From positions 1-21,441 of IMG/VR virus record IMGVR_UViG_3300009703_001672: a DNA stretch of 21,441 nt. One strand, given 5' to 3'. Under the pieces are notes generated by a model. The model was not told the DNA's origin, ran no database searches, and saw only the letters and a program-made list of their open reading frames with translations. Position numbers and translations under genes: made by a program. Numbering within the stretch: the first letter of the stretch is position 1; each line of letters opens with the position of its first letter. This document shows, piece after piece, positions 2,982 to 20,785 of this stretch. Source of the stretch: a virus.

Positions 2982-4524
2982 TCCATACCTAAATAACCCC
3001 TTTCTAACAAAGAGGTTAAGTACACATTCCTACACTGAAGAACAAATCATCGAGTTCAAGAAATGTGCAGAGGATATACATTATTTTGCAGAAAATTATT
3101 TCACCATAGTTCATATCGATCGTGGTAAAATTAAAATCCCCCTTTACGATTATCAAAAGAAATTATTAAAACAGTTTGAGAAAGAGCGCTTTAATATAGT
3201 TACTCAATCTAGGCAGTCAGGTAAAACAACTACAACGACTGTATTTGTTCTTCATTACATACTGTTCAATAAAGATAAAACGGTTGCCATCCTTGCTAAT
3301 AAGGGAGATACTTCACAAGAAATTCTTGCTCGAATTCAACTTGCATTTGAACTCATTCCGAATTGGCTCAAACCCAATGTTGTTGAGTGGAATAAAAGAA
3401 CTGTTGAATTTGAGAATGGTTGTCGAATTATGGCAAGAGCCACATCGTCTTCCTCTATTCGTGGTCAGAGTGTTGCATGCTTAATAATCGACGAAGCAGC
3501 ATTTGTAGAGAGGTGGGATGAATTTTATAAATCTACTTATCCTACAATCGCCAGCGGTAAAGAAAGTAAGGTTATATTAGTATCAACGGTCAATAAACTC
3601 AATCACTTCAATGCCATCCGGGTTAAGGCAGAGCGTGGGGAGAATGAATTTGTGCCATTTGAGGTAAAATGGGATGATGTTCCCGAAAGAGATGAGGCAT
3701 GGAAAGATCAAACCATTGCCAACACATCCCTCGAAGATTTTATGCAGGAGCATGAGAATGTTGCTCTTGGTTCGTCAAATACGTTAATATCGTCTTGGGT
3801 ACTTAGAAATATTATTACGACAGAACCAATTGAAATAGTTGATTGTGTCAGATACTTTGATAAACCTATTACGGGGAATAAGTATATAATAACGGTAGAT
3901 ACTTCTCACGGGAAGGGGCTCGATTATTCTGTCTCCACTGTATTCGATATTACACAATACCCCATTAAACAGGTTGCAGTATTTCGAGATAATAAAACCT
4001 CCTCCAAGGTATATACAAGGATTATTCATAATCTTGGAATACAGTATAATAATGCTCACATCTTAGTGGAATCAAATGATATTGGTCATACCGTAGTTAA
4101 TGAATTAAATTATGAATACGAATATGAAAATTTAATATCGGAAAAAACTAGTAATGAAAAATATGCTCTAGGGGTTCGTACAACAAAATCAACCAAGCGT
4201 ATAGGTTGTTCTATATTATCGGATTTAATTGCAAATAATAAACTTATTATACAAGATGAAAATACGGTAATGGAACTTTCCAATTTCGTCTCCCGTGGAT
4301 CATCATATGAGGCAGAAAGAGGTACAACTGATGATATTGTCATGACCCTTGTTATGCTTGCATGGTATACTACAATAGAAAATTTTGAATATTTGAGTTC
4401 TATAAATATAGATGATCTTTATCAAGAAAAATATACAGAGATAGATGATATTATACCCCCCATTATGACTACAGAAGAGCCCACCGGATACTATGAAGCT
4501 GGTGATTATTGGGTTAAACCTTAA
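2974..4524 (+). CDS. gp17: T4 gp17-like large terminase (packaging ATPase-nuclease)
   Basis: 516 residues. Gp17 docks on the portal, pumps DNA into the prohead by ATP hydrolysis and cuts the concatemer. The ATPase domain has Walker A SRQSGKTT (79-86), Walker B CLIIDEAAF (D173, E174) and coupling motif VSTVN (204-206). The RNase H-like nuclease domain shows three acidic positions: D309 in IITVDTSHG, E366 in ILVESNDIG and D453/D454 in TTDDIVMTL. The segment QEHENVALGSSNTLIS between the domains is typical of T4-type TerL. Length is slightly short of T4 (610). The ATG lies inside the end of the preceding gene (8-base overlap), suggesting coupled translation. The portal gene follows directly rather than sheath and tube genes. 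Confidence 0.97.
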   Translation: MSDPYLNNPFLTKRLSTHSYTEEQIIEFKKCAEDIHYFAENYFTIVHIDRGKIKIPLYDYQKKLLKQFEKERFNIVTQSRQSGKTTTTTVFVLHYILFNKDKTVAILANKGDTSQEILARIQLAFELIPNWLKPNVVEWNKRTVEFENGCRIMARATSSSSIRGQSVACLIIDEAAFVERWDEFYKSTYPTIASGKESKVILVSTVNKLNHFNAIRVKAERGENEFVPFEVKWDDVPERDEAWKDQTIANTSLEDFMQEHENVALGSSNTLISSWVLRNIITTEPIEIVDCVRYFDKPITGNKYIITVDTSHGKGLDYSVSTVFDITQYPIKQVAVFRDNKTSSKVYTRIIHNLGIQYNNAHILVESNDIGHTVVNELNYEYEYENLISEKTSNEKYALGVRTTKSTKRIGCSILSDLIANNKLIIQDENTVMELSNFVSRGSSYEAERGTTDDIVMTLVMLAWYTTIENFEYLSSINIDDLYQEKYTEIDDIIPPIMTTEEPTGYYEAGDYWVKP

Positions 4525-10218: not shown

Positions 10219-10557
10219 ATGAAAAAACGAAATAAAGCACTATTAACAGTCGGCGCATTAGCATCCGTTTATTTAGTTGGTAACACTATCCAAAAAAATA
10301 CTGATATATCAGCGACTAGTATGCTCGAACTCGTAAGTCCACAAACCTGGACGGATAGACCAGAACAATTATTTGGCATTAAAGAAATAGATAAAACCCT
10401 GTCAACCCAATTTTACACAGGGAAGGGAGAATTTGGTTGCGGTGCCACACATCATGTAGGTGGTGGTTGCGGTGCTAACCATCTCCCCAAAGAAGAATAC
10501 AACAATCTCCCATCAGAACATAACCCAGGAAATAAACTAAATGAAAAGCGGAAATAA
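10219..10557 (+). CDS. small exported or membrane-anchored protein with paired GCGA/His motifs, unknown function
   Basis: 112 residues, not recognised. The N-terminus is KKRNK followed by a hydrophobic stretch (residues 8-22, LLTVGALASVYLVG), which could be a signal peptide or anchor. The middle is polar. At about 74-91 there is a glycine-rich segment with two related units, GCGATHH and GCGANH, giving two Cys and three His in 18 residues, which suggests metal or haem binding or a disulfide; this is inference. The C-terminus is charged. The ribosome binding site GCAGGA lies eight bases before the ATG and the gene has its own early-type promoter. Its last 17 bases overlap the start of pyrD, suggesting the two act or are expressed together. 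Confidence 0.6.
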   Translation: MKKRNKALLTVGALASVYLVGNTIQKNTDISATSMLELVSPQTWTDRPEQLFGIKEIDKTLSTQFYTGKGEFGCGATHHVGGGCGANHLPKEEYNNLPSEHNPGNKLNEKRK

Positions 10558-11719
10558 ATATAAGATACAAAGGAATGTTTATAAATTTTTATTGAGACCT
10601 ATATTATTTAAGCTCTGTCCAGAGACAGCACATGATGTAGTCAAGAATATTATGGTATCTCTTCAAAAGATACCAGGCTCAAGATCTCTGCTGAAATTCC
10701 TATATCGCTATGATAATCCCGTGTTATCTCAAACCGTAGGCGGTGTTCACTACAGCAATCCTCTCTTAATTTCCGCTGGATTTGATAAGTATGGAGTACT
10801 CCCCTCTGTTATCAAAGATCTCGGATTTTCTGGTATTGAACTTGGTTCATTCTCGAAACATATGCATCCCGGAAATCCACCGGTTCGACTATGGAGAGCA
10901 GTTAAATCCCAATCAATTAACGTATGGTATGGTCTGAATAATTCTGGTTCTCAGCATGTACGAGATACCATTGCACCATCTTGGAAGTCTGTTCCGGGGG
11001 TATGTGGTGTATCTGTATCCGCAACAAATGGTATTTCTGGTTCGGATGAGGCGATTGAGGATTTAACAACCTCATACAAGAGACTTGCACCATTCGGTGA
11101 TTATACAACCATAAACCTATCTTGCCCAAATCTCGGGGTAGCTAATCCATTTTTTAATATGGATAATCTGGGAGAATTATTACTGAAGTTAAGATCACTG
11201 CGAGAATTACTGGGTCTCGAGAATGTACCCCTATATTGCAAAATCGGACCAGATCATACAGACGACGAAATTCGTGAAATGATTGATGTTATGGTTGAAT
11301 ATGGTATAAACGGTATACTTACTTGTAACCTTACAACTAAGAGATCCTTGGTTCCAGAGGATGATATAACCACACACGTTTTTCATAAAGGTAAACTTGA
11401 AAAAAGAGTTATGCCCTACGATAAAGGTGGTATGAGCGGTCACGTTCTTAGACCTATGACCAACCATATAATTAGAATGTGTGCTCAACACATTAAAGAT
11501 TCTGACTACGATTTCATAGTTGTGGGTATTGGTGGTTGTGATACCCCAGAGGACGCATATCATAAAATACGGAATGGTGCAACATTAATACATCTTATCA
11601 CCGGCATGATCTTTCATGGTCCACAAATTTCTGCAGAAATTAATATGGGACTCGCTGAACTTCTTGAACGTGATGGGTACACCAATATATCTCAAGCGAT
11701 TGGAGTTGATCTTGATTGA
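10541..11719 (+). CDS. pyrD: dihydroorotate dehydrogenase, class-2-like, with an atypical catalytic motif
   Basis: 392 residues. DHODH oxidises dihydroorotate to orotate in pyrimidine synthesis using FMN. The N-terminal helix pair YKFLLRPILFKLCPETAHD (14-32) is the membrane/quinone-tunnel segment of class 2 enzymes, so electrons would go to quinone at the inner membrane. FMN and substrate motifs are present: SAGFDK (78-83), GLNNSG (131-136), CKIGPD, GMSG and VVGIGGCDTPEDAYHKI, with LITGMIFHGP near the end. The base motif reads NLSCPNLG (192-199) with Cys195, whereas class 2 enzymes normally have Ser there (NxSSPNT) and class 1 have Cys. The gene overlaps its upstream neighbour by 17 bases and has AGGA before the ATG. 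A late-type promoter for another gene follows the stop. Confidence 0.9.
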   Translation: MKSGNKYKIQRNVYKFLLRPILFKLCPETAHDVVKNIMVSLQKIPGSRSLLKFLYRYDNPVLSQTVGGVHYSNPLLISAGFDKYGVLPSVIKDLGFSGIELGSFSKHMHPGNPPVRLWRAVKSQSINVWYGLNNSGSQHVRDTIAPSWKSVPGVCGVSVSATNGISGSDEAIEDLTTSYKRLAPFGDYTTINLSCPNLGVANPFFNMDNLGELLLKLRSLRELLGLENVPLYCKIGPDHTDDEIREMIDVMVEYGINGILTCNLTTKRSLVPEDDITTHVFHKGKLEKRVMPYDKGGMSGHVLRPMTNHIIRMCAQHIKDSDYDFIVVGIGGCDTPEDAYHKIRNGATLIHLITGMIFHGPQISAEINMGLAELLERDGYTNISQAIGVDLD

Positions 11720-12259: not shown

Positions 12260-12655
12260 ATGGACCTAGATAAAATTGATGTAACTAAACTTACTATAGA
12301 ATCAGCGGAGACACCTTTAATATACTCGAAGTACATGAATCAATACAATGAGATTCTTGCTAAACTTAAGTGGTATGGGATGGAATATGATGTCCTTTAC
12401 CTAGATAAATGGAAATATTTCCTCGGGAAAGCTGATCCCGACGTTTATTTAAAATCCCCTCTCCCTGAAAAGATATTAAAATCCGACGTTTCCTTGTATA
12501 TTTCAGGTGATCCTGATGTCATAGAACTTAAGAAAAAAATGATATCTCTTGAAATACAGGAGAAAGACCTTGAGAAAAAATTAAAAGAAATCGGAGCAAG
12601 GTCTTTCCATATTAGAAATATAATTGAGTGGGAAAAGTTTCAGGCGGGGAATTAG
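12260..12655 (+). CDS. uvsY: UvsY-like recombination mediator
   Basis: 131 residues (T4 UvsY has 137). UvsY loads the UvsX recombinase onto single-stranded DNA covered with gp32 and so drives recombination-dependent replication. The assignment rests on TPLIYSKYMNQYNEILAKL near the N-terminus (T4 has NVMLYSKWLNKHSSIKKEM) and the C-terminal RSFHIRNIIEWEKFQAGN (T4 ends GFAIKHIQDMRAFEAGK), with a charged coiled-coil region between. It lies directly ahead of uvsW, as in T4. The only possible in-frame start near the 5' end is ATG 12260, since TAG lies at 12245. No Shine-Dalgarno sequence is present and the promoter -10 is six bases upstream. Confidence 0.87.
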   Translation: MDLDKIDVTKLTIESAETPLIYSKYMNQYNEILAKLKWYGMEYDVLYLDKWKYFLGKADPDVYLKSPLPEKILKSDVSLYISGDPDVIELKKKMISLEIQEKDLEKKLKEIGARSFHIRNIIEWEKFQAGN

Positions 12656-14124
12656 TGGATTATATAACAAATAACAAATCTGATATAACAATTACCAAGA
12701 AGAATGATATCTTCGTATCTATATCGACCGATAAAGGTATAGCTCAAGAATTGTCCGACCATTTTACCTTCGAAGTTCCTGGCGCAAAGTTCATGCCAGC
12801 GTATAAAACTAGAGCATGGGATGGTAAAATAAGGCTCTTTAATCTCAAGACATCTCTTATCTATTATGGTCTTAAATTTGAGGTGGTTAGGTTTGCTGAT
12901 ACTAGAGGTTATACATTCTCTATATTTGACGAATCTGGGAATACTGATAAGGGTGATGTCACCGAATTCATAAAGGCTTTGAACATTCCTCTCGAGTTAA
13001 GAGATTATCAAACTGAAGCTATACACCATTCAATAAAACAAAATAGATCTCTTCTAGTAAGTCCTACTGCATCTGGTAAATCATTAATCATTTACTGTCT
13101 AATTCGATATTATCTTCTTAAACAACCAGAAAAGATTCTACTTCTGGTACCTACAATATCACTTGTATCACAAATGTTTAAAGATTTCGGTGACTATGGG
13201 TTTCATTCAGAGACGAATTGTCACATGATAACAGGAGGGAAAAATAAGGATTCTTGGCAGAGAATATATATTTCAACATGGCAATCTGTATACAAAGAAA
13301 AGAGATCATACTTTGAGAAATTCGGTGTCATATTCGTTGATGAGGCTCATCTAGCTAAAGCAGCATCACTCAAGTCTATAATGGAAAAACTTCCGAACTG
13401 TAAATACAGATTCGGATTAACGGGAACTCTTGATGGAACCGAGTCTAATAAATTAGTTCTCTCTGGATTATTTGATGTTCCAAAGAAGGTTGTATCCACC
13501 AAGGAATTAATGGATGCTGGTACAATATCAAAACTTAAAATCAATTCCCTCATCCTAAATCATTCTGTCTCTGATAAGAAGATAGCCACTCGAGTTAAAA
13601 CTTATCAAGAGGAATGTGATTATCTTGTTCTTAATGCTACACGAAATCAATTTATTTCCCGTCTTGCTACAAGCCTTGCGGGAAATACGCTTGTTCTGTT
13701 TCAGTACGTTGAGAAACACGGTATTCCCTTGACCAAGCAAATCAAAGCGATGACCACAAAGAATGTCAGATATATTTCTGGTATGGTTAAAGCCGAAGAA
13801 AGAGAAGAAACCAGAGATGTTACAGAATCTAATGATGATGTTATAATTGTAGCATCATACCAAACATATTCAACTGGTATCAATATCAAGAACCTTCATA
13901 ATATTATCCTTGCATTTCCAACTAAATCCCAAGTGAGAGTCCTACAGTCTATTGGTCGTGGTCTTCGTCTTCACGATTCTAAAGATAAGTGTAATGTATA
14001 TGACATAGCCGATGATATTAGGAAGGGAAAAAAGAAAAACTATACCCTCAACCATTTCTATGCTCGCTACAACATATACAATGAAGCAGAGTTTGATGTT
14101 TCAACAGAGATTATCAACCTATAG
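12655..14124 (+). CDS. uvsW: UvsW-like DNA/RNA helicase
   Basis: 489 residues from GTG 12655, which shares one base with the uvsY stop and is preceded by GGCGGGGA; the ATG at 12628 inside uvsY is less likely. UvsW is a superfamily 2 helicase that unwinds R-loops and branched DNA and helps the switch from origin to recombination-dependent replication. The N-terminal DNA-binding domain shows FEVPGAKFMPAY and WDGKIRLFN (39-63). The helicase motifs are YQTEAIHHS (Q-like), Walker A SPTASGKS (136-143), DEAH box VIFVDEAH (225-232), FGLTGTLDG, motif V SYQTYSTGINI and motif VI QSIGRGLRLH. Length is close to T4 UvsW (503). It is co-transcribed with uvsY. Confidence 0.94.
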   Translation: MDYITNNKSDITITKKNDIFVSISTDKGIAQELSDHFTFEVPGAKFMPAYKTRAWDGKIRLFNLKTSLIYYGLKFEVVRFADTRGYTFSIFDESGNTDKGDVTEFIKALNIPLELRDYQTEAIHHSIKQNRSLLVSPTASGKSLIIYCLIRYYLLKQPEKILLLVPTISLVSQMFKDFGDYGFHSETNCHMITGGKNKDSWQRIYISTWQSVYKEKRSYFEKFGVIFVDEAHLAKAASLKSIMEKLPNCKYRFGLTGTLDGTESNKLVLSGLFDVPKKVVSTKELMDAGTISKLKINSLILNHSVSDKKIATRVKTYQEECDYLVLNATRNQFISRLATSLAGNTLVLFQYVEKHGIPLTKQIKAMTTKNVRYISGMVKAEEREETRDVTESNDDVIIVASYQTYSTGINIKNLHNIILAFPTKSQVRVLQSIGRGLRLHDSKDKCNVYDIADDIRKGKKKNYTLNHFYARYNIYNEAEFDVSTEIINL

Positions 14125-14153
14125 TTTACAACATCAAACTAATGTGATATAAT
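14125..14153 (+). promoter_or_regulatory. early-type promoter TTTACA-N17-TATAAT upstream of the RNA candidate
   Basis: -35 at 14125-14130, 17-base spacer, -10 at 14148-14153, starting right after the uvsW stop. Initiation at about 14160 would make an RNA with no open reading frame before the next promoter at 14379. Confidence 0.85.
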
Positions 14154-14159
14154 ATTAAA

Positions 14160-14370
14160 CAAGTACATAAAAATTATAGCAACCGTCTGAGTCGAAAGCT
14201 ATCGGGTTGTAAAGGCTACCATCGAAACCTTTGTTTTGATGCATCCATTCACTGAGTCCGTACAAGCAAAACGTGATAGAGTAACCGGATCGGGGCGTTG
14301 ATATGAGTCCACTAAGGATTCCTGAATAGACAGGAACAAGGTCAGTAGGAATCGTAACCTGCCCTTAAAA
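14160..14370 (+). ncRNA. candidate structured non-coding RNA between uvsW and gp55
   Basis: About 210 bases between two early-type promoters, with no usable plus-strand reading frame. Base composition is unlike its surroundings: I count 82 G+C in 14181-14360 (46%), while adjacent spacers and gp55 are far more AT-rich. Helices seen by eye are a perfect eight-pair hairpin 14220-14227/14234-14241 with loop CCTTTG, a six-pair hairpin TTCCTG/CAGGAA at 14319-14324/14331-14336, and a competing seven-pair helix GATTCCT/AGGAATC at 14317-14323/14347-14353. ATAGC/GCTAT (14176-14180/14198-14202) and CAACC/GGTTG (14180-14184/14205-14209) are also possible. It does not match tRNA, tmRNA, RNase P or 6S RNA signatures I know. 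It could be a trans-acting RNA or a leader regulating gp55. The minus strand of the same stretch is also open for 69 codons but has no start codon near its beginning. Confidence 0.55.
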
Positions 14371-14378
14371 TAATAGTA

Positions 14379-14407
14379 TTTACAATTAATGAAAAATAGG
14401 TTATAAT
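14379..14407 (+). promoter_or_regulatory. early-type promoter TTTACA-N17-TATAAT for the gp55-mdh run
   Basis: -35 at 14379-14384, 17-base spacer, -10 at 14402-14407, followed by AAAGGA and the gp55 ATG at 14436. No other strong promoter or terminator is visible until after the malate dehydrogenase gene, so this is the probable promoter of the eight-gene run. Confidence 0.87.
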
Positions 14408-14435
14408 ATAATCTTAAGATAAAGGAAAAAATATA

Positions 14436-14912
14436 ATGCCAAAAGTCAAAGATAAAGCAGTTCATTATGTCGACAATAAAGAATTTCTAGAGGAAATGAT
14501 TGAATATAGGATCTCTTACCAGGATTATCTAGATAAGGATCTAGAAAGAAGACCTACTATATCAGATAAGGCTGCAGTCTGTTTTATGAAGATAGCAAAG
14601 AATCTAGCAACTAAACCTAATTTCCGGAACTATACTTATAAGGATGAAATGATACTAGATGGAATAGAAAATTGTATAGCATATGCCCATAATTTTAATC
14701 CAGAAAAATCAAGTAATCCATTTTCTTATTTTACCCAAATAATATATTATGCCTTTATTCGTAGGATCCAAAAGGAAAATAAGCAACGAGATGTTAAAAG
14801 AGGTTTAATTCATAGATCCGATATATCGCAACTTTTTGACATAGACGTATCTAATACTAATACCGAACTTCAAGAATATTATAATGAAATACTAAAGGAT
14901 TATTTTCAATGA
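14436..14912 (+). CDS. gp55: gp55-like late-transcription sigma factor
   Basis: 158 residues (T4 gp55 has 185). Gp55 is a divergent sigma-70-family factor that directs host RNA polymerase to TATAAATA late promoters, together with the sliding clamp. The region-2-like core is recognised by FMKIAKNLATKPNFRNYTYKDEMI, then LDGIENCIAYAHNFNPEKSSNPFSYFTQIIYYAFIRRI, a pattern conserved in gp55 of T4-like phages. The N-terminus (YVDNKEFLEEMIEYR) is also typical. Three TATAAATA boxes in this window are its likely targets. It has an early-type promoter, a ribosome binding site AAAGGA, and a four-base ATGA overlap with the gp47 gene. Confidence 0.92.
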   Translation: MPKVKDKAVHYVDNKEFLEEMIEYRISYQDYLDKDLERRPTISDKAAVCFMKIAKNLATKPNFRNYTYKDEMILDGIENCIAYAHNFNPEKSSNPFSYFTQIIYYAFIRRIQKENKQRDVKRGLIHRSDISQLFDIDVSNTNTELQEYYNEILKDYFQ

Positions 14913-17665: not shown

Positions 17666-17875
17666 TTGATATACGAGTATGTTGCATATGGAATTGTTAT
17701 TGCTTTAGCGGTAAAATTTTCTTATTCCGCAGGAGCTAAGGCGGGATTAGAGTTCGGGGTGAATTATTGTTTAGATAATCTACATGAACTAAATATCATT
17801 GATTTCAAAGTCGACAAAGACGGTAACGAAATTATAGTGAGGGTTGTTAATAATGGAAAAAATAATAAAGGTTAA
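17666..17875 (+). CDS. small membrane protein downstream of gp46, unknown function
   Basis: 69 residues starting with TTG at 17666, chosen because GTAGGAGAG lies just upstream and it follows the gp46 stop by one base. The N-terminus (YEYVAYGIVIALAVKFSYSAGAKAG) forms one hydrophobic helix followed by a glycine/alanine-rich turn. The rest is a short soluble domain (FKVDKDGNEIIVRVVN) that looks like a beta hairpin. It is not assigned to a named family. It overlaps the pyrophosphatase gene by 23 bases, so it probably shares translation with it. Confidence 0.7.
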   Translation: MIYEYVAYGIVIALAVKFSYSAGAKAGLEFGVNYCLDNLHELNIIDFKVDKDGNEIIVRVVNNGKNNKG

Positions 17876-18344
17876 AATTGAAATACCTATGGCATCAGAC
17901 CCCATTAAATATGAGGTCGATCAAGAAACTGGAGATATTTGTTTAGATAGATTTCTCGATACCGCAATGTATTACCCGACCAATTATGGGTTTATGCCGG
18001 GTACATTAGCTCCAGATGGAGATCCACTTGATATATTAGTCCTGAGTCCATATCCCCTGTTATCGGGGTGTGTTGCTAGATGTAGGGTCCTAGGAGTTTT
18101 AAGAATGGTTGATGAGGAAGGTGAGGATCATAAGATTTTGACGGTACCAACTGGAGATTATTATGCTGATTATAACGATCTCGAAGATGTTCCGAGGAGA
18201 TTACTATCATGCATTAGACATTTTTTTGAACATTATAAAGATTTAGATCATGATAAATGGGTTAATGTTATTGGTTGGGAAGATGGTGACTCCGCAAGAA
18301 AAGTAATTAAAAAATATGATAATATAAATCCTTATACAAAATGA
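17853..18344 (+). CDS. ppa: family I inorganic pyrophosphatase
   Basis: 163 residues from ATG 17853, preceded by GAGGG; TTG 17844 in the same frame is less likely. The enzyme splits pyrophosphate into two phosphates in the cytoplasm, using Mg, and so drives DNA, RNA and aminoacyl-tRNA synthesis. Active-site elements of bacterial PPases are intact: KYEVD (Lys and Glu), LDRF (Arg), MYYPTNYGF (two Tyr), the signature DGDPLDILVL (three Asp), DEEGEDHK (Asp, Asp, Lys) and HYKDLD (Tyr, Lys). Length is near E. coli Ppa (176). It is embedded between replication genes and dehydrogenase genes in one transcription unit. In a phage the benefit is likely faster nucleic-acid synthesis and phosphate recovery. 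Confidence 0.96.
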   Translation: MEKIIKVKIEIPMASDPIKYEVDQETGDICLDRFLDTAMYYPTNYGFMPGTLAPDGDPLDILVLSPYPLLSGCVARCRVLGVLRMVDEEGEDHKILTVPTGDYYADYNDLEDVPRRLLSCIRHFFEHYKDLDHDKWVNVIGWEDGDSARKVIKKYDNINPYTK

Positions 18345-18356
18345 TAGGGGAAAAGT

Positions 18357-18728
18357 ATGATACTATATGATGATACAGTCGATGAATTTAATAAATCCAC
18401 ATTTGAAACTATAACTCCTTGGATATGTGAACGATTAGGAATACCAGATGAGATAGATATATGTTTTTTTATTGGCGATCTGTCTAATAAATCTGACGTA
18501 GCAGAAGGACCACTTCGAGGATATACAATATGTGATCCTTCAAATAGAGGTTACTATGATATCTACATTGATAATGATATGCATAGGAATACAATAATTT
18601 CCACCATAATACATGAGATGGTTCATGTATATCAATATATAAATTATAGAGACCTCGATGAAGAGTATGCATATTCCTCTGAATATGTATTATATTACGA
18701 TTTTATGATTGAGCTTAACGAGGTGTAA
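18357..18728 (+). CDS. small HExxH zinc-metallopeptidase-like protein
   Basis: 123 residues with ribosome binding site AGGGG. The key feature is TIIHEMVHVYQY: His86, Glu87 and His90 form an HExxH zinc site. It is followed by DEEYAY (Glu102/Glu103), which could give a third ligand as in gluzincin-like or SprT-like minimal peptidases. The upstream strand GYYDIYIDNDMHRNTIISTIIHE is typical of an active-site edge strand and helix. No signal peptide is seen, so it is probably cytoplasmic. The substrate is unknown. It sits 12 bases after ppa and one base before the alanine dehydrogenase gene, so it belongs to the same operon. Proteolysis itself has not been established from sequence. Confidence 0.68.
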   Translation: MILYDDTVDEFNKSTFETITPWICERLGIPDEIDICFFIGDLSNKSDVAEGPLRGYTICDPSNRGYYDIYIDNDMHRNTIISTIIHEMVHVYQYINYRDLDEEYAYSSEYVLYYDFMIELNEV

Positions 18729-18729
18729 A

Positions 18730-19815
18730 ATGAAAATCGGTTTAATTAAAGAGATAAAGGATAATGAAAATAGAGTAGCAATTACCCCAGATGGGGTTCG
18801 TGCATTAGTTAATGTTGGTCATTCGGTATGTGTAACATTTGAAGCGGGAGTTGGTTCTGGTTATTCGGATGATGATTACATAGCAGCTGGTGGGGTTATA
18901 TGCCATGACTTTTATGCATGGGATTCGGATCTTGTAGTTAAGGTTAAAGAACCACTCGAAGAAGAATACAAATATTTCAATGGGCAAATATTATTCACTT
19001 ATCTTCATCTAGCTGGTGTAGATAAAAATCTCACACTCAAATTATTGAGCACAAATACCACCGCCATAGCATATGAATCTGTTGCGGATGAGCATGGAAA
19101 TCTTCCTCTCCTATCGCCAATGTCAGCAATTGCTGGTAATATGGCTATTACCATTGGTTCTTATTATCTTCGATATGCGGGGGATCTCAGAGGTTCTGGA
19201 GTACAACTTGGAGATATTAATGGTAATACCTCCGGTAATGTAGTTGTTGTTGGGGATGGGGTTGTTGGAAGACATGCTGCTAAAATGGCTTCGGGTATGG
19301 GTTCTAATGTCACGCTTATTGGTCTCGATGTCGAATGCCAAAAATATTTCGGTCATGGAAGTGGTGTGATATATAGAAAATCAACTAAAGAAAATTTAGA
19401 GCATTACATTAAAGATGCCGATTTAGTTGTTGGTGCAGTTTCAATCCCCGGAATGAAAACTCCGGTTGTTGTCACAGAAGATATGGTAAGGTCTATGAGA
19501 AAGGGGTCTGTTATTGTTGACGTTTCTATAGACCAAGGTGGATGTATCGAAACTTCACGTATGAGAACTCACAAGCACCCAATTTATTCTAAACACGGTG
19601 TCATTCATTATTGTGTATCTAATATGCCTGGTACATATCCAAGGTCTGCTACGGATATATTAACTGAATCGACATTACCATATATAACAAGGTTAGCTAG
19701 TTCTGATATTGATAAATTAGATTCAAATTTTAAAAAGGGGGTTTATGTGCATAGTGGTAAAATAACTAATTTAAATGTTGCGGAATCATTGGGCTTGGTG
19801 GAATATTATGAGTAA
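18730..19815 (+). CDS. ald: alanine dehydrogenase (NAD-dependent)
   Basis: 361 residues from ATG 18730, chosen because GAGGTG lies just before it; TTG 18709 is inside the preceding gene. Ald reversibly converts L-alanine, NAD and water into pyruvate, ammonia and NADH. Hallmarks are KEIKDNENRVAITP (7-20, Arg15), VKVKEP (Lys73), TYLHLAG (His93), the Rossmann motif VVVVGDGVVG (171-180), IVDVSIDQGGCIETSR (Asp268), and HYCVSNMPGTYPRSAT. All catalytic residues known from bacterial Ald are in place and length is near the usual 370. The NAD loop reads GDG rather than GGG. It overlaps mdh by eight bases. I know of no common phage role for it, so it is a strong candidate for an acquired metabolic gene. 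Confidence 0.95.
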   Translation: MKIGLIKEIKDNENRVAITPDGVRALVNVGHSVCVTFEAGVGSGYSDDDYIAAGGVICHDFYAWDSDLVVKVKEPLEEEYKYFNGQILFTYLHLAGVDKNLTLKLLSTNTTAIAYESVADEHGNLPLLSPMSAIAGNMAITIGSYYLRYAGDLRGSGVQLGDINGNTSGNVVVVGDGVVGRHAAKMASGMGSNVTLIGLDVECQKYFGHGSGVIYRKSTKENLEHYIKDADLVVGAVSIPGMKTPVVVTEDMVRSMRKGSVIVDVSIDQGGCIETSRMRTHKHPIYSKHGVIHYCVSNMPGTYPRSATDILTESTLPYITRLASSDIDKLDSNFKKGVYVHSGKITNLNVAESLGLVEYYE

Positions 19816-20785
19816 ATCAGTTAACATATCAATTACCGGTGCTGCTGGTAGAATCGGATATGCTTTAGTGTTTCGCTTGGCTAATGGGGATTTATTTGGA
19901 GAAGATGTAAAGGTTAATCTTAAACTCCTAGAAGTTCCATCGGCAATGAAAACCTTACACGGTATACAAATGGAATTGGATGATTGTAATTTTCCGACAT
20001 TAGGGAATGTAGTTATCACAGATGAACCAGAAGTCGCATTTGGTGATGCTGAATATGTGTTCATGATGGGGGCTAAACCCAGACTAAGGGGAATGGAACG
20101 ATCCGACCTCCTACAAGATAATGCAAAGATATTTGCTTCTCATGGACGTATTCTCGGTAAAGTTGCATCGAAAGGTGTTAAGGTATTAATTGCGGGTAAT
20201 CCAAGCAATACCAATACCCTCGTAGCTTTATCTAATGCAGTTGGATTAAATTCTACCAATTTTACTGGAATGATGCAACTCGATGTTAATCGTGCTAAGA
20301 CTATTGTATCTAAATATTGTGGAGCTCCTCACACCGCAATTAACGATCTCATAATATGGGGTAATCATTCCCCCACATTATATCCCGATTTAAATCATGC
20401 CCAAGTAAAAGGATTTAAGGCAATGGATCTTATTGAGAACGATTGGTATGTTAAGGATTATATACCTGCGGTACAAAATAGAGGTGCTTCTGTCATTGAA
20501 TGGCTTGGCGCTTCGTCTGCAGCCTCTGCCGCTAATGCTGCAATTCAACAAATGAAAATCTGGTCGGGTAAGGGCGGTTCACAACTCTGGGAATCAATGG
20601 CGGTGTTATCATCAGGACAGTATGGTATTGAGTCTGATTTAATATTTTCATTTCCTATCTATCATGCAAGAGGTAAACTCTTTGTTGTTGATGATCTAGA
20701 TATTAATGAATATTCCGAGTCCATGATAAGATTGACTGAGGCTGAGTTAATATCTGAGAGAGATGAAATTAGGCATTTACTATAG
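19808..20785 (+). CDS. mdh: malate dehydrogenase (cytosolic/Thermus-type, NAD-dependent)
   Basis: 325 residues from ATG 19808; an in-frame upstream ATG at 19775 inside ald is rejected as it adds a non-homologous tail. The enzyme interconverts malate and oxaloacetate with NAD. Motifs match the dimeric cytosolic-type MDH family: TGAAGRIGYAL (10-20), Glu42 at the end of strand 2 favouring NAD, GAKPRLRGMER (Arg92, Arg98), GNPSNTNT, LDVNRA (Asp159, Arg162), and WGNHSPT (His187). GASSAASAANAAI and the C-terminal ERDEIRHLL are also family features. Length is near the normal 327. The usual PRGPGMER loop reads PRLRGMER here, which could affect substrate closure. It is the last gene of the operon; a new promoter follows. 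Confidence 0.95.
   Translation: MSKSVNISITGAAGRIGYALVFRLANGDLFGEDVKVNLKLLEVPSAMKTLHGIQMELDDCNFPTLGNVVITDEPEVAFGDAEYVFMMGAKPRLRGMERSDLLQDNAKIFASHGRILGKVASKGVKVLIAGNPSNTNTLVALSNAVGLNSTNFTGMMQLDVNRAKTIVSKYCGAPHTAINDLIIWGNHSPTLYPDLNHAQVKGFKAMDLIENDWYVKDYIPAVQNRGASVIEWLGASSAASAANAAIQQMKIWSGKGGSQLWESMAVLSSGQYGIESDLIFSFPIYHARGKLFVVDDLDINEYSESMIRLTEAELISERDEIRHLL

Follow-up and report, generated by a model that had tools for sequence, protein, structure and literature searches.

A structured RNA with a pseudoknotted 3' core and either of two 5' domains in marine T4-like phages

INTRODUCTION

The HDV ribozyme has the strand order of a nested double pseudoknot around a three-way junction, and in PK1 of flaviviral xrRNAs a strand before a three-way junction pairs into the junction. 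The GOLLD and ROOL RNAs are several hundred nt long (659 nt in a ROOL example and >800 nt in many GOLLD RNAs) and often lie near tRNA islands; in GOLLD the 3' part is conserved and the 5' part less so (PMC12286853). Structured RNAs are also found in Melnitz-like marine phages, which carry a tmRNA/glutamine riboswitch (PMC9004378).

Here, we describe an RNA gene at positions 14160-14370 of a 21,441-nt stretch of viral DNA (IMG/VR record IMGVR_UViG_3300009703_001672; hereafter, the window), between uvsW and gp55 of a marine T4-like virus. In the subset of the literature available under open licence, we found no paper describing an RNA at this locus. Earlier new classes of structured noncoding RNA (ncRNA) tended to reveal new biology.

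THE LOCUS AND ITS PROMOTERS

The features of the locus, in window coordinates, are as follows.

12628-14124, plus strand: uvsW helicase gene, usually next upstream (Pfam UvsW_N PF21241, 5e-16; synteny)
14125-14153, plus strand: sigma70-type promoter of the RNA (TTTACA 14125-14130, 17-nt spacer, TATAAT 14148-14153)
14160-14371, plus strand: whole type-A structured RNA (matches to models R1 and R2; both ends putative)
14379-14407, plus strand: second sigma70-type promoter, behind the RNA, driving gp55 (TTTACA 14379-14384, 17-nt spacer, TATAAT 14402-14407)
14436-14912, plus strand: gene for the late sigma factor gp55, usually next downstream (54% identity to HTVC008M gp55; synteny)

An initial annotation had placed twin TTTACA-N17-TATAAT promoters at 14125 and 14379, and both are present at those positions with a spacing of 17. 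It had also seen no usable plus-strand reading frame between them and an elevated G+C content, and both observations hold: the longest stop-free run is 36 codons, and positions 14180-14368 are 46.0% G+C against 35.8% for the window, a value reached in 59 of 2126 sliding 189-nt windows. An 88-codon frame on the minus strand was considered as a gene and rejected, being disrupted in most relatives; its 88-aa product has no Pfam match.

When is this promoter likely to be used? The window holds six copies of TT[TG]ACA-N16-18-TATAAT on the plus strand and none on the minus strand, some of them directly before genes such as uvsY (12225) and gp55 (14379), and T4-late-type boxes (TATAAATA) occur at 4401, 4563, 6836, 6862, and 11721, on the plus strand only and near structural genes. 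Since the RNA carries the sigma70-type element and the late boxes accompany structural genes, its promoter would be of the early/middle class. A TATAAT-like -10 box precedes nearly all of 41 inspected copies of the RNA (TATACT in L177 and L232), mostly together with a recognizable TTGACA/TTTACA-like -35 element; about eight type-B copies (defined below) also show a late box, TATAAATA, no more than about 16 bases from their first helix, H1, in the form CATAAATA in L190 and L201. Transcription of the RNA in the window probably starts at about 14160. An intrinsic terminator was looked for downstream of the RNA in the window and none was found, so the 3' end given here is an estimate.

Elsewhere in the window lie genes for a dihydroorotate-dehydrogenase-like protein (10541-11719), inorganic pyrophosphatase (17844-18344), alanine dehydrogenase (18709-19815), and a malate/lactate dehydrogenase (19775-20785), a metabolic set that is uncommon for a T4-like phage; a search of GTDB with the malate dehydrogenase as a clue to the host returned nothing. 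A long open reading frame (ORF) of repeated units at 509-2284 (VVFESA...YISATFDSNSNKIVIAYKD...GTAVVGTVSGTSISFGTP) likely encodes a fibre or adhesin-like structural protein.

RELATIVES OF THE RNA

A gp55 search of viral contigs gave a matching stretch upstream of gp55 in L002-L020, with the RNA of L018 and L019 lying elsewhere. A pattern from the most conserved loop of the RNA, CGTCTGAGTCNNAAGCTATCGG, retrieved 24 contigs, and this type-A pattern had no match in GTDB genomes. One phage, L013/L126, retained the 3' half of the RNA with a different 5' half; a pattern from that 5' half led to L168, and a motif from L168 led to 44 contigs. The RNA is present in all 44, and its 3' core is the same wherever the contig end permits. 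A 3'-core pattern added 14 further contigs. Candidates L106-L125, from a loose type-A motif search, were discarded as chance matches.

In total, the RNA is present in at least 82 IMG/VR contigs, 26 with the type-A 5' domain found in the window and 56 with that of type B, a count that includes duplicates of one phage population and is a lower bound because the searches used exact patterns. Contigs of 50-124 kb hold a single match apiece, apart from one with a second match of only 13 bits. In L015, conservation of the RNA exceeds that of third codon positions in gp55: L015 and the window are 77.5% identical in the RNA over aligned bases (omitting 64 gap columns, mostly inserted hairpins), and only 40% identical at third codon positions of gp55.

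Direct blastn of the window or of the type-B RNA against phage records, cultured phages included, gave AT-rich noise or nothing. Neither covariance model (R1 or R2, described below) matches HTVC008M or AG-345-L05, and R2 has no match in Melnitz, Mosig, P-TIM40, BUCT-ZZ01, or S-CREM2, in a search that contained no positive control.

COVARIATION AND FOLDED STRUCTURE

Single-sequence folding of the window is unremarkable (z, -1.04; 35 of 200 shuffles equally stable), with nothing significant on either strand, and on the window alone the claim of a structured RNA would thus be weak. Covariation among relatives decisively establishes that the structure is more than chance. The comparison of uvsW-gp55 homologues that the initial annotation had called for is strongly positive, and the elements supported in type A, all on the plus strand and in window coordinates, are as follows.

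P1, 14180-14185 (CAACCG) with 14203-14209 (CGGGTTG): both sides changed in 3 of 6 pairs
P2, 14214-14246: GG 14214-14215 with CC 14245-14246, plus a hairpin of 14220-14228 with 14233-14241
P3, 14249-14276: hairpin TCAC with GTGA, both sides changed in 2 of 4 pairs
P6, 14288-14291 (GATC) with 14340-14343 (GGTC): pseudoknot, 100% of cells paired in both types
P4, 14293-14296 (GGGC) with 14307-14310 (GTCC): covariation among relatives
P5, 14313-14317 (TAAGG) with 14363-14367 (CCTTA): covarying, for example GC in 21 and AU in 19 at pair 82-161
P5a, 14319-14336: hairpin TTCCTG with CAGGAA, loop AAUNNA, covariation among relatives
P5b, 14345-14362: hairpin GTAGG with CCTGC, loop ending CGUAA, both sides changed in 4 of 5 pairs

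In 17 type-A sequences (alignment A4), 97.3% of the cells of these eight elements are standard pairs; both sides changed in 24 of 44 pairs, with 79 such cells against 19.8 in shuffles, and slid controls pair only 31-49% of cells, with 1-6 pairs changed on both sides. The corresponding analysis of 30 type-B sequences (A3; H1-H4, P6, P4, P5, P5a, and P5b) gives 98.6% of cells paired and both sides changed in 27 of 47 pairs (compensated cells number 224, against 63 in shuffles; 2-7 pairs changed on both sides in slid controls). For the 3' core that the two types share (A6; 40 distinct sequences), 99.3% of cells are paired and 13 of 20 pairs changed on both sides. The shuffles do not take account of relatedness; the slid controls preserve relatedness and yet collapse. 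The models agree across types: the type-A model R1 scores 242 bits at window positions 14170-14376 and detects the type-B contig L168 at 2e-11, and the independent type-B model R2 finds window positions 14151-14371 with an E value of 1.2e-15.

P1 encloses a near-invariant loop, UCUGAGUC-NN-AAGCUAU. A pseudoknot between CUGAGUC of this loop and GRNUCGG was rejected, since no pair changed on both sides and the variation is explained by P6. In P2, both sides changed in 5 of the 9 hairpin pairs and the GG/CC pairs are invariant; the hairpin at 14220-14241 described by the initial annotation as a perfect eight-pair one is therefore real, and actually has nine pairs, one of them G-U. P6 joins the strand before P4 to one that lies between P5a and P5b, within P5, which closes the 3' three-way junction. 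Its outer two pairs vary as GC/UA/AU/GU and GC/AU/CG/GU with no broken cells, and 36 of 40 sequences have U-G as the standing pair at one of its positions, which points to an RNA rather than a DNA structure. Peripheral hairpin insertions are usual for structured RNAs; P4 bears an apparently covarying one in L015, L017, L018, and L092, and further hairpins are inserted in the P5b loop of L015, L019, and L177.

TWO 5' DOMAINS ON A COMMON CORE

The pseudoknotted core (P6, P4, P5, P5a, and P5b) is joined to either of two 5' domains that look unlike each other in their outer parts, type A (P1-P2, as in the window) and type B (H1-H3), and homology between these 5' domains could not be shown. The P3 loop, GUACAA, resembles by eye the loop of the type-B hairpin H4, so homology of the two types may reach back to P3/H4.

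Can the domains move between phages? In the gp47 tree, types A and B fall into two separate clades, and from this distribution the RNA would be either old and often lost, or exchanged. L126 belongs to the type-A clade by gp47, and its RNA combines a 5' domain of type B, which shares 85% identity with that of L232, with a core that is nearly type A (a handful of differences from L009, read against the printed sequences). This chimera suggests exchange of RNA domains between the types. A small ORF (MKQIVTGNTPEW...) lies between uvsW and the recombinant RNA in L013/L126.

GENOME PLACEMENT

Mapping by tblastn with annotated HTVC008M proteins and those of the window places the RNA between uvsW and gp55 in most contigs. 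It is elsewhere in eight contigs, and in four of these (two distinct sequences) the RNA and its neighbours are clearly on opposite strands. The relocated copies include the following.

L090/L093, opposite strand: RNA flanked by the major capsid gene (MCP) and a neighbour (L097 is a member of the L090 sequence group)
L092: RNA near the tail sheath gene
L176: RNA near nrdB, flanked by genes of the opposite strand
L230/L222: RNA likewise away from the uvsW-gp55 site
L232: RNA with the capsid gene on one side and a gp3-like gene on the other

These positions, some opposite in strand, imply that the RNA is not simply a gp55 leader.

Several other features of these neighbourhoods were recorded. In L092, a tRNA-Met gene of the opposite strand (L092:9147-9223) is some 150 bases away from the relocated RNA, and an HNH-like-looking ORF, seen by eye and matching no family, lies past the 3' end of the same RNA; HNH-like neighbours were considered as the cause of relocation in L092 and L230 and set aside as weak, with Pfam matches below threshold only. 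Repeats with a unit of about 60 bases (GCATAATAGATACCAATAG-ATTAATCC) lie downstream of the relocated RNA of L019. In two type-A relatives, translations from genes inserted between uvsW and the RNA include thiolase and FadB look-alikes (L088:6919-10200, reversed-strand listing) and a holo-ACP synthase look-alike (L018:2633-3034). The distance from the RNA to gp55 is several hundred bases in type B, and in L168 this space holds a gene for a SET-domain protein (L168:2031-2378; Pfam SET, 1.4e-10).

A PHAGE Sm-LIKE PROTEIN NEXT TO TYPE B

In type B, uvsW and the RNA are separated by a gene for a small protein of phrog_527, which resembles Pfam Sm_like, at a sub-threshold level, and PDB 3by7, a solved Sm-like protein (E value, 1.1e-4). 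Of the 53 loci on the type-B list, the gene was found in 47, upstream of the RNA in the listed cases. No copy was found next to type-A RNAs, and two type-A contigs encode it elsewhere in the genome. HTVC008M and Melnitz have the gene and no match to the RNA models; an exclusive partnership with the RNA was therefore rejected, and the protein is a candidate partner only.

DISCUSSION

The observations outlined above support the initial proposal of a discrete structured RNA with its own promoter, through covariation and the promoter itself; its length of ~210 nt is an extrapolation. We think it probable that this is a stand-alone gene for a trans-acting, protein-bound RNA with a constant core and an exchangeable 5' domain, operating earlier in infection. 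The bolder proposal is that it represents an undescribed class of trans-acting phage RNA, with that core and those exchangeable 5' domains, which would belong to a sizeable group of uncultured marine T4-like phages and would work within a phage ribonucleoprotein on host transcription, translation, or defence; this we regard as evenly balanced.

In the mechanism that we posit, a sigma70-type promoter of the early/middle class would yield a transcript of ~210 nt, as judged from promoter and structure, and the transcript would fold into the constant 3' core with the P6 pseudoknot demonstrated by covariation, preceded by a 5' domain of type A or B. We infer action in trans from the other genome positions of the RNA, some on the opposite strand. 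Most likely, the RNA would be part of a protein complex in the earlier part of infection, with the core as a binding platform and the 5' domain as an exchangeable specificity part; the Sm-like protein is one candidate for the partner.

What else might the RNA be? It could serve in host takeover or counter-defence, as a decoy or inhibitor of host RNA polymerase, the ribosome, a nuclease, or a defence protein. The sigma70-type promoter, which suggests early or middle synthesis, would fit such a role, and a 5' domain that can be exchanged would be of use in an arms race; against this, defence-gene models had no match on a few neighbouring proteins, and the core is more conserved than expected of a decoy. 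On balance, we consider this role unlikely, although a serious contender. We place a comparably low probability on the idea that the RNA is specifically the partner of the phage Sm-like protein, for which the adjacency in most type-B loci, the likeness to Sm_like (below the cut-off) and 3by7, and the two type-A contigs encoding the gene all speak, but which has to accommodate HTVC008M and Melnitz, with the gene and no RNA match, and the absence of the gene beside type-A RNAs.

A cis-acting leader, a riboswitch or attenuator tuning gp55 translation or transcription, is a less probable reading still. The RNA does adjoin gp55 in most contigs, and because no second promoter was seen by eye between RNA and gp55 in L015 and L020, the RNA could belong to the gp55 mRNA there. 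However, the window and most near relatives have a separate gp55 promoter downstream of the RNA (found by eye in L003-L014, L017, and L018), the spacing in type B, with the intervening gene of L168, detaches the RNA from gp55, and the copies far from gp55, those of L090 and L176 opposite in strand to their neighbours, mean that the RNA is not always in cis. The initial annotation had also envisaged a switch between two mutually exclusive helices; the alternative, GATTCC 14317-14322 with GGAATC 14348-14353, is present in the window but is not conserved (it is absent, for example, from L010, L012, and L007). Of the two functions then suggested, the switchable gp55 leader is therefore disfavoured, and the trans-acting RNA is the one that we favour, given the loci of L090, L092, L176, L230, and L232.

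Self-cleavage or some other catalysis seems very improbable. The argument for it is that many unpaired bases are invariant and that the strand order of the 3' core, P6-P5-P5a-P6'-P5b-P5', covariation included, is that of the HDV ribozyme. In the phage RNA, however, the 3' strand of P5b (14358-14362) abuts the 3' strand of P5 (14363-14367), so that J4/2 is absent and there would be no place for a catalytic C; P6 has just 4 pairs, one of them U-G, against about 7 in P1 of HDV, which begins at the cleavage site; the P4 hairpin and the 5' domain are additional; and no Rfam ribozyme matches. Finally, chance or a DNA-level feature such as an origin or packaging signal, for which the single-sequence z of only -1.0 might speak, is in effect refuted by covariation that includes G-U pairs, by the slid controls, and by the one-directional promoter before the inspected copies.

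The RNA would be new at the level of the RNA class, with no Rfam family and no occurrence found in the cultured phage genomes searched. Within marine virus collections it occurs in two clades of T4-like phages, and ncRNAs with a pseudoknot, two subtypes, one match per genome, and a fixed place have rarely been found in lytic phages. With the covariance models and coordinates given, metatranscriptomes and structural probing can test the RNA at once.

COMPARISON WITH KNOWN RNAs

Rfam 15 gave no family match for the window, as the initial annotation had asked to be checked, nor did Rfam for L020, L013, L168, and seven further type-B contigs, the best sub-threshold hits being on the other strand or far under the cut-off; ARAGORN found no tRNA or tmRNA at the RNA, for which a tRNA-like acceptor and T arm and a tag frame would be expected. 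Together with the covarying structure, these results agree with the earlier view that the RNA is not a tRNA, tmRNA, 6S RNA, or RNase P RNA. 6S RNA forms a single long, irregular hairpin with paired ends and a bubble at its centre, whereas the phage RNA is a chain of hairpins with a pseudoknotted junction; RNase P RNA would be expected to show CR-I to CR-V around its P4 and an Rfam match, and the phage RNA shows neither. The Sm-like relative of 3by7, although its gene adjoins type-B RNAs, is itself a protein and occurs without the RNA as well.

The RNA of Melnitz is similar in being a structured RNA of related Kyanoviridae of marine bacteria; the phage RNA described here differs in having no tRNA-like domain and no ARAGORN or Rfam match, and the Melnitz genome has no R2 match. 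As in flaviviral xrRNAs, a strand ahead of a three-way junction pairs into the junction, but no second pseudoknot was found, there is an extra P4 hairpin, the context is a phage, and Rfam gives no hit. GOLLD and ROOL are likewise encoded by phages or prophages, with an elaborate, covarying, pseudoknotted structure and, in GOLLD, a conserved 3' and less conserved 5' part; the RNA described here, in contrast, is ~200-270 nt long, short of the >500 nt expected of a member, is mostly fixed at uvsW-gp55, has another structure, and leaves their Rfam models unmatched. By this comparison, GOLLD would be the described RNA nearest to it in kind.
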